This document shows, one piece after another, positions 1,306 through 57,901 of a stretch of DNA of 64,000 nucleotides. The DNA lies in NCBI RefSeq assembly GCF_041435195.1, contig NZ_CP108106.1:4746501-4810500 (forward strand). The letters are read 5' to 3'. The position numbers and the translations under genes are program-made. Source of the stretch: Streptomyces sp. NBC_00224 (GTDB lineage: Bacteria > Actinomycetota > Actinomycetes > Streptomycetales > Streptomycetaceae). The first letter of the stretch is position 1; every line of letters begins with the position of its first letter. Under the pieces are notes generated by a model, which made no database searches, had not been told where the DNA came from, and saw only the letters and a program-made list of their open reading frames with translations.

Positions 1306-1389
1306 CGCGTGCCGCCTCCCCCGTGCTCGTTCAACATCAACAGCTCGAATGCCATGACGGTACCGTCGGCGGCCGACACCCGTCTCCCC

Positions 1390-1447
1390 CTGTGGATAAC
1401 TCCCGGCGGTGGCCATCGGGCAAGCCACCGCCGGGAGTTATCCACAG
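1390..1447. repeat. Perfect 24-bp inverted repeat carrying two DnaA boxes
   Basis: The arms are 1390-1413 and 1424-1447, identical as reverse complements over 24 bases, with a 10-base loop. Each outer arm carries an exact TTATCCACA box: 1391-1399 on the minus strand and 1438-1446 on the plus strand. The repeat sits between the leftward membrane-protein gene ending at 1480 and the leftward DUF2252 gene starting at 1305. It could therefore be the terminator of the first gene, although no T-run follows the stem. The DnaA boxes are seen directly; binding is inferred. Confidence 0.8.
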
Positions 1448-12011: not shown

Positions 12012-12020
12012 CCTCGGGAC

Positions 12021-12034
12021 GTTTCACGTGAAAC
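12021..12034. promoter_or_regulatory. parS: parS site (left of a pair)
   Basis: Exact GTTTCACGTGAAAC nine bases after the pbpA stop. Its start is 21 bases from that of the second copy, about two helical turns, so two ParB dimers would load on the same face. Confidence 0.95.
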
Positions 12035-12041
12035 AGTCCTC

Positions 12042-12055
12042 GTTTCACGTGAAAC
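12042..12055. promoter_or_regulatory. parS: parS site (right of a pair)
   Basis: Exact GTTTCACGTGAAAC in the pbpA-pknB gap, about 150 bases ahead of pknB. Together with the 12021 copy it forms a tandem pair inside the cell-wall cluster. Confidence 0.95.
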
Positions 12056-12200
12056 GTCTCTCGCGACCTGTACCGGTCCGGTATCAGCTGACGGTCACGG
12101 ACAGATCCGCTACCGGTGCCCGGTAGCGTATGCGCGAACAGCACACCGCCGGACCACACACACGGGTGCGGTCGGGACTGACGGAGAGGGCTGGAACGTT

Positions 12201-19034: not shown

Positions 19035-19234
19035 TTATCCACAACGCTATCCACACTGGGGAAAAGGTCAGACGATCTGTGGATAACCTCCGCCGTGTTG
19101 ACGCCGGTGTGACTGCACCCTCCCACACCGGCCCACGGCCCGCCCCTTGTCTCTGCTGGGAAAACCCAGGTCAGCGACAAGGGGCACAGCTGTTCCCCAC
19201 CGGATGCACAAGATCCGGCACACACTGTGGACAA
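19035..19234. promoter_or_regulatory. DnaA-box cluster downstream of crgA
   Basis: Three exact boxes lie within 200 bases: TTATCCACA at 19035-19043, its complement at 19079-19087, and TGTGGACAA (TTGTCCACA on the minus strand) at 19226-19234. A CTATCCACA with one mismatch is at 19047-19055. The cluster lies between convergent crgA and the rhomboid gene, about 18 kb from oriC. Clusters of DnaA boxes outside oriC are known in S. coelicolor, where one of them lowers initiation frequency. This may be an equivalent. Confidence 0.75.
19142..19185. terminator. Long hairpin between crgA and the rhomboid gene
   Basis: GCCCCTTGTC at 19142-19151 pairs with GACAAGGGGC at 19176-19185. The stem continues inward with CTG/CAG and CTGGG/CCCAG around an AAAA tetraloop. 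It is a near-perfect stem of about 18 pairs between convergent genes and so is probably a bidirectional terminator. It has no T-run. Confidence 0.65.
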
Positions 19235-35251: not shown

Positions 35252-36382
35252 TCAGCCGGAGAGACGCACCGGCATGATCAGGTACTTGTACGCGTCGTCC
35301 GCCTCGGCGTCGAGCGCGGGCTTGCCGCTCAGCAGCGCCGGCTTGGTCGAGGTGGTGAAGGAGAGCTGGGCGACCGGGGAGTCGATGGCGCTCAGGCCGT
35401 CGAGCAGGAAGGTCGGGTTGAAGGCGATCGAGATGTCGTCGCCCTCCAGGTTGGCGTCGACCCTTTCCACAGCCTGTGCGTCGTCGCTGGAACCGGCCTC
35501 CAGGATGAGCACGCCCTGCTCGAAGCTGAGGCGGACCGGAGTGTTGCGCTCGGCGACCAGGGAGACGCGCTTGACGGCCTCGACGAAGGGCGCGGTCTCG
35601 ATCACCGCGACCGAGTTGAACTCGGTGGGGAACAGCGTCCGGTACTTCGGCAGGTCGCCTTCGAGCAGCCGGGTGGTGGTGCGCCGGCCGGCGCCCTCGA
35701 AGCCGATCAGGCCCTCGCCGGCGCCCGAGCCCGACAGCGCGAGGGTGACGGTGTCACCGCTGGTCAGGGCCTTGGCGGTGTCCAGGAGCGTCTTGGCGGG
35801 CACCAGGGCGACCGCGGAGGCGTCCGGGTTCTCCGGCTTCCACAGGAACTCGCGGACCGCGAAGCGGTAGCGGTCGGTCGAGGCCAGGGTGACCGTGTCG
35901 CCCTCGATCTCGATCCGGACGCCGGTCAGCACCGGCAGGGTGTCGTCGCGTCCGGCGGCGATGGCGACCTGGGCGGCGGCGGAGGCGAAGACCTCACCGG
36001 GAACGGTGCCGGTCGCGGTCGGCATCTGCGGCAGCGCCGGGTACTCCTCCACAGGCAGGGTGTGGAGGGTGAAGCGGGAGGAGCCGCAGACCACCGTCGC
36101 CCGTACACCGTCTGTGGAAATCTCCACCGGGCGGTTGGGCAGGGCGCGGCAGATGTCGGCGAGCAGGCGGCCGGAGACGAGCACCGTGCCGTCCTCGTCG
36201 ACCTCGGCGTCGACCGAGACCCGCGCCGAGACCTCGTAGTCGAAGCTGGAGAAGCTGAGGGCGCCGTTCTCCGCCTTCAGAAGAAGGCCCGCGAGCACCG
36301 GCGCGGGCGGACGGGCCGGGAGGCTGCGGGCCACCCACGCCACCGCCTCCGCGAGAACATCGCGCTCCACCCGGATCTTCAC
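35252..36382 (-). CDS. dnaN: DNA polymerase III beta sliding clamp
   Basis: 376 residues from a GTG at 36382 with GGAGGCGG upstream. An open frame continues about 330 bases further into oriC but is not coding. Three topologically similar clamp domains are seen, beginning VKIRVERDVLAEAVAWVARSLPARP and ending YKYLIMPVRLSG, the usual C-terminal MPVR motif. It forms a ring dimer that tethers DNA polymerase. It is the first gene left of oriC, and its promoter lies within or beside the origin. Confidence 0.98.
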   Translation of the reverse strand: MKIRVERDVLAEAVAWVARSLPARPPAPVLAGLLLKAENGALSFSSFDYEVSARVSVDAEVDEDGTVLVSGRLLADICRALPNRPVEISTDGVRATVVCGSSRFTLHTLPVEEYPALPQMPTATGTVPGEVFASAAAQVAIAAGRDDTLPVLTGVRIEIEGDTVTLASTDRYRFAVREFLWKPENPDASAVALVPAKTLLDTAKALTSGDTVTLALSGSGAGEGLIGFEGAGRRTTTRLLEGDLPKYRTLFPTEFNSVAVIETAPFVEAVKRVSLVAERNTPVRLSFEQGVLILEAGSSDDAQAVERVDANLEGDDISIAFNPTFLLDGLSAIDSPVAQLSFTTSTKPALLSGKPALDAEADDAYKYLIMPVRLSG

Positions 36383-37289
36383 CGGAACCGCCTCCTGCTG
36401 TTGCTGGCTCGCCCTGCTGGCTTTCGTCGTCGGCTGTATCGCCGGGGACCAGTCTGACGTACGCCGCTGACACTCGGTGCGAGTCGGGGTCAAGTCGTGC
36501 CGAGAGGTCCGGGAGCCACCGGGCTCAAGTTGTGCACAGGCCCCACTTCGAAGCGGAATCCGAGCTAACTCTAAGTGGAAGTAGTAGTAGGGCCTGTGGA
36601 AACGGTGGATAACCCCGTTTTCGCAGGTCAGGCCCACTTTTTTGTCCACCGCGCCTGTGGGTGGAGCCGGTGGACAACTCACCGGTTCTGTGGACACCCG
36701 AAAGTTCTGCACACCCGATGCACAGGCAGGGCCGACTTCTCCCCAGGGCTGTCCCCAGCTTTACCCACGTTCCCCACAGCCCAACCGGCCTCGTTGGTGT
36801 GACGCCTTTCACTCGACCCGGTGATGAGGGGTGTTGCGTTGCCGAACAGTGGACAGCGCTGTGGAGAAGCTGTGGGCAATGGGCCCCAGCCTGTGGGCCG
36901 CCGGTGGACAACTTTGACCACAGGCTGTGGACAGAGAATTCGTCCACAGCCTGTGGAGGACGCTCGCGCACAAATCCACAAGTATCTGACCTGGGGTGAT
37001 GGAGTATCAGGGCGTCGGCCTGTGGAAGCAATCTGGACAACTGAACAGTCCCCAGGGTGTGGACGGGGAAAAGTGCCCGGATCTGTGGAGAACCCCCTCT
37101 GACCGGCGCGTATTCGAACACCGGGGGCCGGGACGAGCCGTACGGACCGGCCGCGGCGAGCCGTACACAGGGGCGGGAACGACGCCGTACGTACGGATGC
37201 GGCGGCCGTACGAGGGCTCGTGGGCAACGCGAAGGGCGCCCGGGACAGGTGTGTCCCGGGCGCCCTGAGAGGCTCTGCGAGCGGTCCGC
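36383..37289. other. oriC: Replication origin oriC
   Basis: 907 bases between dnaN and dnaA with many DnaA boxes in both orientations. Boxes one mismatch from TTGTCCACA start at 36530, 36642, 36669, 36689, 36860, 36871, 36903, 36914, 36926, 36940, 37032 and 37084. Weaker ones are at 36595, 36604, 36848, 36952 and 37058. They fall into two main groups (36.5-36.7 and 36.85-37.1 kb) separated by a gap of about 150 bases. I found no box with the exact consensus. Strings of T (TTTTTTGT near 36640) and AT-richer stretches near 36550-36590 may be where strands open. Confidence 0.95.
37234..37265 (-). terminator. dnaA terminator at the oriC border
   Basis: A 14-bp perfect stem (GGGCGCCCGGGACA at 37234-37247, complement at 37252-37265) with loop GGTG, 25 bases past the dnaA stop. 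It separates dnaA transcription from oriC. Confidence 0.85.
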
Positions 37290-39068
37290 TCAGCCGTTCT
37301 TGATGCGGTTGGTGAGCTCGGTGACCTGGTTGTAGATGGAGCGCCGCTCGGCCATCAGCGCGCGGATCTTCCGGTCGGCGTGCATCACCGTCGTGTGGTC
37401 GCGGCCGCCGAACTGCGCCCCGATCTTCGGCAGCGAGAGGTCGGTGAGCTCGCGGCACAGGTACATCGCGATCTGGCGGGCCGTCACCAGGACCCGGCTG
37501 CGCGAGGATCCGCACAGGTCCTCGACGGTAAGCCCGAAGTAGTCGGCGGTCGCCGCCATGATCGCGCCGGCCGTGATCTCGGGCGCCGAGTCCTCGCCGC
37601 CGGGGATCAGGTCCTTCAGCACGATCTCGGTGAGCCCCAGGTCCACCGGCTGCCGGTTGAGCGACGCGAACGCCGTCACCCGGATCAGCGCGCCCTCCAG
37701 CTCACGGATGTTCCGCGAGATCCGGGACGCGATGAACTCCAGCACCTCCGGCGGGGCGTTGAGCTGCTCCTGCACCGCCTTCTTACGGAGGATCGCGATG
37801 CGCGTCTCCAGCTCCGGCGGCTGCACATCGGTGGTCAGACCCCACTCGAAACGGTTCCTCAGCCGGTCCTCAAGCGTCATCAGCTGCTTGGGCGGCCGGT
37901 CGGAGGAGAGCACGATCTGCTTGTTGGCGTTGTGGAGCGTGTTGAAGGTGTGGAAGAACTCCTCCTGCGTCGACTCCTTGCTCGCCAGGAACTGGATGTC
38001 GTCGACCAGGAGGATGTCCACGTCCCGGTACCGCTTGCGGAAGGTGTCGCCCTTGCCGTCGCGGATCGAGTTGATGAACTCGTTGGTGAACTCCTCGGAG
38101 CTCACGTAGCGCACGCGGGTGCCCGGGTAGAGGCTGCGGGCGTAGTGCCCGATGGCGTGCAGCAGATGCGTTTTGCCAAGGCCCGACTCCCCGTAGATGA
38201 AGAGCGGGTTGTACGCCTTGGCCGGCGCCTCGGCGACGGCGACGGCCGCCGCGTGCGCGAACCGGTTCGAGGAACCGATGACGAACGTGTCGAAGAGGTA
38301 CTTGGGGTTGAGGCGTGCCTGCGGCTCGCCGGGGCCGCCGGGCTGGGCCGCCGAGGACGACGAGGGGCCGCCCATCGGACGCGGGGCGCCGCCGCCCTGC
38401 GGGCCGCCGTGGTGCTGCTGGGACTGCGGCTCGGAGAGGTCGTGGCGGTCGTGGCGCTCCGGTCGCTGCTGCTGCTCGTACGGCTGCCCCTGCTGCTCGT
38501 ACTGCGGGCGCTCGGGCATCTGCGGCTGCCGGTAGTCGTGCTGCGGCTGCTGCGGGCGGGCGGTCGCGTACGGGTCGCGCTCCTGGAAGCCGCCGAGGCG
38601 GGGCTGCTGCCAGGACAGGTCCTCCTGGGCGCGCGGCCAGGCGCCGGGCTCGGGGCGCTGCTGCTGGTAGTCCGGGTAGGCGGGGCGCACGGTCGGCAGG
38701 CCGTCGTCGGCCGGGCGGCCGTAGGCGTCCTCCTGGTAGCGCGGGGGCTGCTGCTGGGGCGGCGCGGACTGCGGGCCGCCGCCCGGGGGCTCGCCCACGG
38801 AGTCGTCGACGGTGATCGCGATCCGGATCGGGCGGCCGCACTCACGGCTGAGCGTGTCGCTGATCAGCGGGGCCAGGCGGCCCTCCAGGACGCGCTTGCC
38901 CCACTCGTTGGGGACGGCGAGCAGCGCCGTGTCGGCGACCAGGGCGAGCGGCTGGCAGCGCTCGATCCACTGCTTGTCCTTGGGCTCGATGCCCTGCTGG
39001 CCCTCCCCGAGGAGCTGCTCCAGCACTCGTGGCCACACTGCGGCAAGATCGGCAGGTACGTCAGCCAC
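37290..39068 (-). CDS. dnaA: Chromosomal replication initiator DnaA
   Basis: 592 residues from a GTG at 39068; the open frame extends to 39164, but DnaA similarity begins at [20 protein letters not shown]. Domain I is about 1-90. Domain II (about 95-250) is a long Gln/Pro/Arg-rich linker typical of Streptomyces DnaA. The AAA+ domain has Walker [10 protein letters not shown] at 293-301 and Walker [10 protein letters not shown]. Domain IV ends with the DnaA signature [16 protein letters not shown]. It binds DnaA boxes and opens oriC. An exact DnaA box upstream of the gene suggests autoregulation. Confidence 0.98.
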
Positions 39069-39451
39069 AAGGCACGCTCTCTCGCAGGTCCCACGAATGT
39101 GTGGTTCTCGGGACGGGATGGAAGGACAGGCACGGACAGAAAGGAAAGGTCGGGGTCGAGCCACGGTAGTCGCGGCGGCTGACGTGGTTCAAGTTGTTGT
39201 CCACAGGCTGTGCACAGTGGGCCCCGCGAAGACGCGGGTTTGACCAGATGGCGTAGCCGCGCGTACCGTAACCAGGTCGAGTTGTCGATGGCTGCTGCCG
39301 CCTGCCTCCGATGGGCAAAGATCACGGTCTGTGATCGTGAAGCGGTGCACTCGGGCGTATTGCGAGCTTCGCGAATTGCGAGCTTCTCGTGGGCGCACGG
39401 TGACAGCCAGGCGATGTCCCGCCACCACCGAATCATTTCTGGAGCCCCCGA
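39069..39451. promoter_or_regulatory. dnaA/rpmH divergent promoter region with DnaA box
   Basis: 383 bases between divergent dnaA and rpmH. An exact TTGTCCACA lies at 39197-39205, with a weaker TGTGCACAG at 39209-39217. In S. coelicolor two DnaA boxes in this region mediate DnaA autorepression, so this is probably the dnaA operator. The rpmH promoter must lie in the right part; I could not fix its hexamers. Confidence 0.75.
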
Positions 39452-43233: not shown

Positions 43234-44310
43234 ATGGCAGGCTCTGTGCATTGCGAGCCTGAAGTCGAGGAGAGTGAATCCTTGCGGTCCGACGCCAACA
43301 TCGCGGGACCGATGACCGACCCGGTCCCCGGTCCCCGTACCGAATCGGCGGGGGAGGATGTTTCACGTGAAACACCGCCCCCGATGGACGACACCCCCAT
43401 CGGTCGTGCTGCCCAGCTGGCGGTGGAAGCTCTCGGCCGTGCCGGCGAGGGCCTGCCCCGGCCGGAGCAGACACGCATCATGGTGGTCGCCAACCAGAAG
43501 GGCGGCGTGGGAAAGACCACTACCACGGTCAATCTCGCCGCCTCCCTGGCGCTGCACGGTGCCCGGGTTCTGGTGGTCGACCTCGACCCGCAGGGCAATG
43601 CCTCCACCGCGCTGGGGATAGACCACCATGCCGATGTCCCCTCGATCTATGACGTCCTGGTGGAGAGCAGACCGCTCTCCGAGGTCGTCCAGCCGGTCCG
43701 GGACGTGGAGGGCCTCTTCTGTGCCCCGGCCACGATCGACCTGGCCGGTGCGGAGATCGAGCTGGTGTCCCTGGTGGCACGGGAGAGCCGTCTGCAGCGC
43801 GCCATCCAGGCGTATGAGCAGCCGCTGGATTACATCCTGATCGACTGCCCGCCGTCCCTGGGGCTCCTCACCGTCAACGCGCTCGTCGCCGGTGCCGAGG
43901 TCCTGATCCCCATCCAGTGCGAGTACTACGCGCTGGAGGGGCTGGGCCAGCTGCTGCGGAACGTCGACCTGGTGCGAGGGCATCTGAACCCCACGCTGCA
44001 TGTCTCGACGATCCTGCTCACCATGTACGACGGCAGGACCAGGCTCGCCTCCCAAGTGGCCGACGAGGTGCGCAGCCACTTCGGCCACGAGGTCCTGCGG
44101 ACGAGCATCCCGCGATCAGTACGTATCTCGGAGGCTCCGAGCTACGGCCAGACGGTGCTCACCTATGACCCGGGCTCCAGCGGCTCGCTCTCGTATCTCG
44201 AAGCCGCCCGCGAGATCGCACTGCGCGGGGTCGGCATCAACTACGACCCGACGCACATCCCCGTGGGCAGTCAGAACAACCAGCACAGCATGTCGGAGGG
44301 GATCCAGTGA
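43234..44310 (+). CDS. parA: Chromosome-partitioning ATPase ParA
   Basis: 358 residues from the ATG at 43234. An open frame reaches back to a GTG at 43051 and would add 61 residues, mostly of unlikely composition. The deviant Walker [10 protein letters not shown] follows [10 protein letters not shown] at about 90, then DLDPQGNAS and [14 protein letters not shown]. The first 85 residues are a polar, acidic extension typical of Streptomyces. It contains a parS site at 43360-43373, read as VSRET. ParA polymerises along sporogenic hyphae and places ParB-origin complexes. The stop overlaps parB by four bases. Confidence 0.95.
43360..43373. promoter_or_regulatory. parS: parS site inside parA
   Basis: Exact GTTTCACGTGAAAC within the N-terminal linker of parA, encoding VSRET. 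Confidence 0.95.
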
Positions 44311-57793: not shown

Positions 57794-57807
57794 GTTTCAC
57801 GTGAAAC
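57794..57807. promoter_or_regulatory. parS: parS site (first of a triplet)
   Basis: Exact GTTTCACGTGAAAC, 17 bases after the cca stop. The next copy starts 24 bases later. Confidence 0.95.
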
Positions 57808-57817
57808 ATGCGCCGAT

Positions 57818-57831
57818 GTTTCACGTGAAAC
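57818..57831. promoter_or_regulatory. parS: parS site (second of a triplet)
   Basis: Exact GTTTCACGTGAAAC in the cca / LppU-family convergent gap. The third copy starts 45 bases later. Confidence 0.95.
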
Positions 57832-57862
57832 ACGGCGACCCGTCGATATGCCGAGGGGCGGT

Positions 57863-57876
57863 GTTTCACGTGAAAC
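57863..57876. promoter_or_regulatory. parS: parS site (third of a triplet)
   Basis: Exact GTTTCACGTGAAAC flanked by GCGGT and ACCGC, which extends the dyad to about 26 bases and could also act as a terminator for the convergent genes. Confidence 0.95.
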
Positions 57877-57901
57877 ACCGCCCCTCAGGTCTCCGCTGGG
57901 A

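Follow-up and report, generated by a model that had tools for sequence, protein, structure and literature searches.

A conserved putative DnaA box at the promoter of Streptomyces DUF2252 genes, overlaid in one clade by a hairpin

Smulczyk-Krawczyszyn is said to have described in 2006 clusters of DnaA boxes in Streptomyces coelicolor, with strong boxes lying outside oriC but near it. DnaA is also a transcriptional activator or repressor, and autoregulation is reported for S. lividans, according to passages of PMC8203912. The passages of PMC4285127 that deal with box sequences name TTATCCACA as the E. coli box and TTGTCCACA as the one with high affinity in S. coelicolor. Among the matches listed in a literature search, no title or opening of an abstract reported a DnaA operator at Streptomyces DUF2252, recA or recD2. 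Judging by the literature surveyed in this way, DnaA is little mapped as a transcription factor in Streptomyces, where replication must match a multicellular life cycle.

We analysed a stretch of 64,000 nucleotides from Streptomyces sp. NBC_00224 (the window). A preliminary description had noted, about 35 kb from oriC, a perfect 24-bp hairpin without a T-run, carrying the strict DnaA consensus in each arm. Reading of the sequence and an inverted-repeat search confirmed the hairpin (1390-1447, no strand): CTGTGGATAACTCCCGGCGGTGGC at 1390-1413 and its exact reverse complement at 1424-1447 enclose a loop of 10 bases (1414-1423). Near the outer end of each arm lies TTATCCACA, in opposite orientations; the copy at 1391-1399 (minus strand) will be called the proximal, and the copy at 1438-1446 (plus strand), inverted relative to it, the distal putative DnaA box. 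The term strict consensus holds for the box listed for E. coli but not for S. coelicolor, for which the same passages of PMC4285127 list TTGTCCACA. The distance to oriC fits the positions of a dnaA-like (37290-39164, minus strand) and a dnaN-like ORF (35252-36712, minus strand), both named by eye.

The window contains four copies of TTATCCACA (1391, minus; 1438, plus; 19035, plus; 19078, minus). Shuffled windows (n = 100) had a mean of 0.03 and none reached four. The whole genome (9.18 Mb) has 20 copies, with 1 for the reversed-pattern control; together with 54 copies of TTGTCCACA this makes 74 strict boxes. A second box group of the window, at 19035-19234, consists of TTATCCACA, CTATCCACA, inverted TTATCCACA and inverted TTGTCCACA, and is found a short way downstream of a gene for a small membrane protein (crgA-like by eye). 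Elsewhere in the genome, some 85 kb from oriC at C1:4868335-4868633 (L012, L013), three strict boxes are flanked by genes that look by eye like serS and pheA; we take them to be perhaps the counterpart of S. coelicolor cluster D78.

The hairpin sits in a 174-base gap that separates two co-directional minus-strand genes. It begins 32 bases past the stop codon of a gene for a YhgE/Pip-like membrane protein (1480-2670; TIGR03062, E 2.6e-4, below the curated cut-off; no Pfam match). On the other side 84 bases, against the roughly 85 described before, separate the stem from the end of the ATG (1303-1305) of a DUF2252 gene (1-1305, truncated by the window start). PF10009 (E 1.8e-128) was the sole Pfam match of the DUF2252 protein and there was no NCBIfam match; a search of solved structures found no sequence relative at E up to 1, and the AlphaFold2 model, being poor (mean pLDDT 48.8), was not used. 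A passage of PMC9758233 places DUF2252 among the families of the Pfam PKinase clan.

The 24-bp repeat ranked first of the 28 inverted repeats of the window, 25 of which were listed. Extended to 29 nt its arms are 93% complementary, and the two longer repeats among those listed (34 and 30 nt) reach just 71-73%. The minus strand from 1375 to 1462 folds with -64 kcal/mol, compared with -35.3 +/- 3.4 for shuffles (z -8.35). Other palindromes of the window, at 12018-12058, 43351-43382 and 57794-57886, contain GTTTCACGTGAAAC, which also occurs upstream of DUF2252 in three relatives (L028, L029, L080) and is presumably the parS type of Streptomyces ParB.

Hairpins lacking T-runs can terminate transcription in Streptomyces. 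The element could thus be an intrinsic terminator of this kind between the co-directional genes, the boxes in its arms being coincidental. Its very stable, GC-rich stem and its place shortly after the YhgE-like stop codon would suit such a function; the T-run of a classical terminator, for which the sequence was read on both sides, is absent in either direction. We consider this explanation very improbable, and the evidence against it comes from the relatives, in which the proximal box is conserved where the stem is absent. The box is therefore not a by-product of the stem.

For this comparison we used 80 named DUF2252 loci, the best 80 of 549 confirmed stretches, a sample biased to close relatives (the best-80 set). 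Of these loci 79 are labelled Streptomyces and one Kitasatospora, and two (L086 and L088) belong to one genome; with the window the set amounts to 81 sequences. Of the 79 loci of the best-80 set with at least 250 bp of upstream sequence, 55 had a strict box (TTGTCCACA or TTATCCACA) on the gene's strand in the 250 bp before DUF2252. Over the 564,001 bases of the best-80 loci, 69 of the 73 forward strict boxes fell within 200 bp before DUF2252; the opposite strand had 3, and the reversed-letter control gave 1. The degenerate box YYNTCCACA occurred within 400 bp upstream in 66 of the 81 sequences and was absent from 15, including L065 and L105, whose upstream sequence is not readable. By the same measure, 28 of the 29 best-80 loci with a YhgE-like gene in the fetched stretch had the box, as did 37 of the 51 in which that gene was not found in the fetched stretch. 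The putative box appears mostly to stay with DUF2252, less often once the YhgE-like neighbour is gone.

The inverted second box behaves differently. It was found upstream of DUF2252 in only 2 of the 81 sequences (window plus best-80 set), the window and L027, its closest relative among the named loci (protein identity 93%), whose stem has mismatches; the other 79 loci of the best-80 set lack the inverted pair. Folding energies of the 64 promoter regions that could be anchored (see below) were -56.4 for the window, -46.2 for L027 and -35.4 for the next best. The preliminary description had named, as evidence against a role of the boxes, relatives that keep the stem and lose the box; the opposite was seen in the best-80 set. 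Its proposals of a cruciform binding two DnaA molecules and of DnaA-dependent termination are without comparative support because the inverted pair is confined to 2 of 81 sequences, and the cruciform was rejected as a general function. Judged from these upstream regions, the putative box is the conserved part and the hairpin a local oddity of the clade of the window and L027.

Genome searches with the inverted pair itself, TGTGGATAAC-N22-50-GTTATCCACA, gave matches in 6 of 295 Streptomyces genomes. Among the six loci (about 3 kb each) DUF2252 was encoded only at the window's own, and the idea of a conserved hairpin family was dropped. A guessed inverted pair of the TTGTCCACAGGG type had 0 matches in the window's own genome. 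In a sister family, DUF2252-like loci (21, from 12 of 14 genomes) had no strict box and one near-box; the arrangement is therefore, as far as sampled, a Streptomyces trait.

Comparison of the relatives revealed a shared order of elements upstream of DUF2252: G-TTGTCCACA-GGG, (A/T)GACG and GGTAC[C/G]GTC. In the window the -10 element is TACCGT (1357-1362, minus strand), and 17 bp from it lies the -35-like element AGACGG (1380-1385, minus strand), of which GACG is conserved; the proximal box starts 37 bp upstream of this -10. To anchor the promoters we used the -10 and neighbouring strings, including GACG, but not the box. In this way 64 of the 81 sequences (window plus best-80 set) were anchored and 17 dropped; four of the dropped ones carry a box, which suggests that box and promoter motif were lost or rebuilt together in some lineages. 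YYNTCCACA starting -38 to -36 from the -10 was found in 62 of the 64 anchored promoters (L043 and L066 lack it), at -37 in 58, -36 in 3 and -38 in 1. The first letters of these 62 proximal boxes are TTG in 35, TTA in 11, TTT in 9 and others in 7. At least one further forward box, most commonly 13, 14, 18 or 23 bp farther upstream, was present in 36 of the 62; the remainder have an inverted second box (2) or a single box (24).

Conservation of the 64 promoters (best-80 set and window) is selective. Mean pairwise identity was 80.8% in the box, 36.4% in the spacer and 30.3% farther upstream; the GGG past the box reached 83.4%, GACG 85.8% and the -10 87.2%. The value for GACG is in part a selection artefact since GACG served for anchoring, as did the -10; the box did not. 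With 23 representatives of the same set less than 65% identical to one another, 22 had the box, and identity was 66.5% in the box against 32.5% in the spacer. The box columns are kept and the spacer hardly, which argues that the box is held by selection and not by general similarity.

The arrangement was also sought in an even sample of the genus, 101 Streptomyces genomes. A strict composite pattern matched in 37 of them, once each (control, 0), and was missed in 64. Thirty of the 37 sites were fetched, and all 30 lie upstream of DUF2252, at 59-223 bp. With three mismatches allowed, 65 of the 101 genomes matched, some repeatedly, and 36 did not; DUF2252 was encoded at 11 of 14 further loci taken from these matches and not at the other 3.

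We favour, with moderate confidence, the reading that the DUF2252 promoter is a DnaA-box promoter, in which a putative DnaA operator occupies an activator-like position and the clade-specific hairpin is overlaid on it. The site is read as a DnaA operator because DnaA can activate or repress (passages of PMC8203912) and because TTGTCCACA is the S. coelicolor box (passages of PMC4285127). From the 9-mer, the binding protein is probably DnaA. Of the earlier proposals, control of the DUF2252 gene by the element gains comparative support, since relatives keep a box at a fixed promoter distance.

With the -10 set at -12 to -7, the proximal box extends from about -49 to -41 relative to the presumed transcription start, directly upstream of the -35-like element, and would be an operator, most likely for DnaA, of the DUF2252 gene. 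An activator bound next to the -35 element can contact RNA polymerase. The position of the box fits an activator and leaves the sign unproven; the bound protein may activate rather than repress. In many relatives the second upstream box forms a direct repeat with the first and could allow cooperative binding. The window species and L027 have an inverted second box, which a long GC-rich stem connects with the first; this stem would be a local addition and may also, despite lacking a T-run, terminate the YhgE-like transcript or insulate DUF2252 from it.

The motif of RecA-NDp (PafBC) promoters is TGTCRGTG-N8-TANNNT. In the window TGTCGG (1373-1378, minus strand) was identified by motif search as a match to the start of its -26 element, and the promoter fits TGTCRG-N10-TANNNTC, not the full TGTCRGTG. 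The genome contains 37 sites of the latter, shorter kind, compared with 3 for the reversed pattern. The conserved string at DUF2252 extends into the GGG and so exceeds a DnaA box; another protein could therefore be the reader, with a motif containing TTRTCCACAGGG, for example in a PafBC-type DNA-damage promoter. As in RecA-NDp promoters, TGTC precedes the -10 by 10-12 bp in the promoters of the window, recA and recD2, in the latter two at -16, and boxes lie upstream of these two. A difference from that class is that TGTCRG at the position of 1373-1378 of the DUF2252 promoters was found in just 3 of 64 (best-80 set and window), and the looser KTCNG in 19 of 64, with at most 2 at shifted positions. 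Furthermore, a box-like 9-mer was present in the upstream stretch examined at only 4 of the 37 RecA-NDp-like sites of the genome, so the box is a separate element and not a regular part of the motif; among these four, a forward box at a spacing of 37 or 49 was found only in DUF2252 and recA. RecA-NDp is the motif of PafBC according to a passage of PMC6789036, and an initial search in S. venezuelae suggested that the PafBC motif of smegmatis is not conserved there (passage of PMC9380542), which argues against reading the TGTC elements as PafBC sites. The 9-mer with G is, moreover, the high-affinity DnaA box listed for S. coelicolor in the passages of PMC4285127. We therefore think it unlikely that a protein other than DnaA reads the box.

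The spacing of the putative DnaA operator at DUF2252 was found at other genes as well. TANNNT stands 36-38 bp after the start of 10 of the 74 strict boxes of the genome; in 156 other 3-wide downstream windows it averaged 0.25, with a maximum of 3. Weaker cases among the 10 are a box that overlaps another one (in the 19-kb group), one for which no 60-aa ORF begins within 300 bases, and one at an M48 peptidase gene, whose first possible start is just 2 bases past the -10. The other seven precede DUF2252, recD2, DUF6397, a TetR regulator, an aldo/keto reductase, an M55 peptidase and a phosphomannomutase-type gene. At the recD2-type helicase gene (C1:3664748, L251; TIGR01448, 459 bits versus a cut-off of 500, protein truncated by the locus end) the box lies 37 bp upstream of the -10 and the start is almost leaderless, an arrangement shared by L264 and L268, which come from other genomes. 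At recA (C1:6598814, L016; TIGR02012) the box lies 49 bp upstream of the -10, and six fetched loci of other Streptomyces genomes have recA with TTGTCCACAGG at 49-50.

Across 41 genomes, with all offsets between 26 and 56 admitted, TASSGTC followed TTGTCCACAGG in 43 cases, of which 25 fell at 36-38, 14 at 49-50 and 4 elsewhere. Thirty were fetched. The 19 at 36-38 precede DUF2252 (14), DUF6397-like (3) and recD2 (2) genes; the 9 at 49-50 precede recA (6) and a similar membrane-protein gene (3), which in L256 has a weak MFS_1 match below the cut-off; 2 are elsewhere. That unrelated promoters share fixed spacings speaks for a regulatory class. We tentatively suggest, as a possibility somewhat short of even, a Streptomyces DnaA regulon with the box 37 or 49-50 bp upstream of the -10 at DUF2252, recD2, DUF6397 and recA, which would tie repair genes and genes of unknown function to the replication state. 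Should the wider pattern be borne out, recA and recD2 would be connected to the initiator. As a separate observation, two copies of TTGTCCACAGG form a direct repeat 18 bp apart directly before an OmpR-type response regulator gene (L189:1022-1050); the pair is similar in L191 and absent in L190.

The neighbourhood of oriC offers another explanation, in which the boxes, like datA or the S. coelicolor box cluster, soak up or inactivate DnaA and delay initiation, the promoter being incidental. Within 120 kb of oriC there are 20 of the genome's 74 strict boxes, against 1.9 expected; several of these 20 form close pairs and are not independent. The dnaA stretch of the window was matched in 10 of 10 genomes, and some 38-79 kb separate DUF2252 from dnaA in the five relatives whose contig numbering leaves little doubt (L027, L074, L078, L085, L094); of these, L094 has no box. 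The enrichment matches the datA-like clusters of S. coelicolor (Smulczyk-Krawczyszyn 2006, as cited in a passage of PMC10950094), and titration thus stays a rival. However, each locus has few boxes, which almost without exception share one strand and keep their distance to the -10, and titration needs neither strand bias nor a fixed distance; we judge it an improbable account of the site. As a putative DnaA operator, conserved and close to oriC, the DUF2252 promoter would be one reporter for whether the level of DnaA shows as gene expression. As the case illustrates, conservation can reside in a simple 9-mer while a conspicuous palindrome is only local.

With the S. coelicolor clusters near oriC (passages of PMC10950094) the DUF2252 site shares strong boxes outside but near oriC, and it differs from them in having few boxes, promoter-locked and strand-biased: there are two strict boxes within several kb of the hairpin, and the boxed promoters (62, best-80 set and window) that are not among the 24 with a single box have mostly one more. 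E. coli datA and the B. subtilis clusters named in the same passages likewise have DnaA boxes away from the origin; the DUF2252 site has fewer, in a fixed promoter geometry. It also resembles the DnaA-regulated promoters of E. coli nrdAB and Streptomyces dnaA (passages of PMC8203912), which have boxes in the promoter, often more than one, and where activation may proceed through RNA polymerase. At DUF2252, too, a strict box lies in the promoter region and its position is conserved relative to the promoter; the differences are the DUF2252 target and the fixed -37 position of the putative DnaA box.
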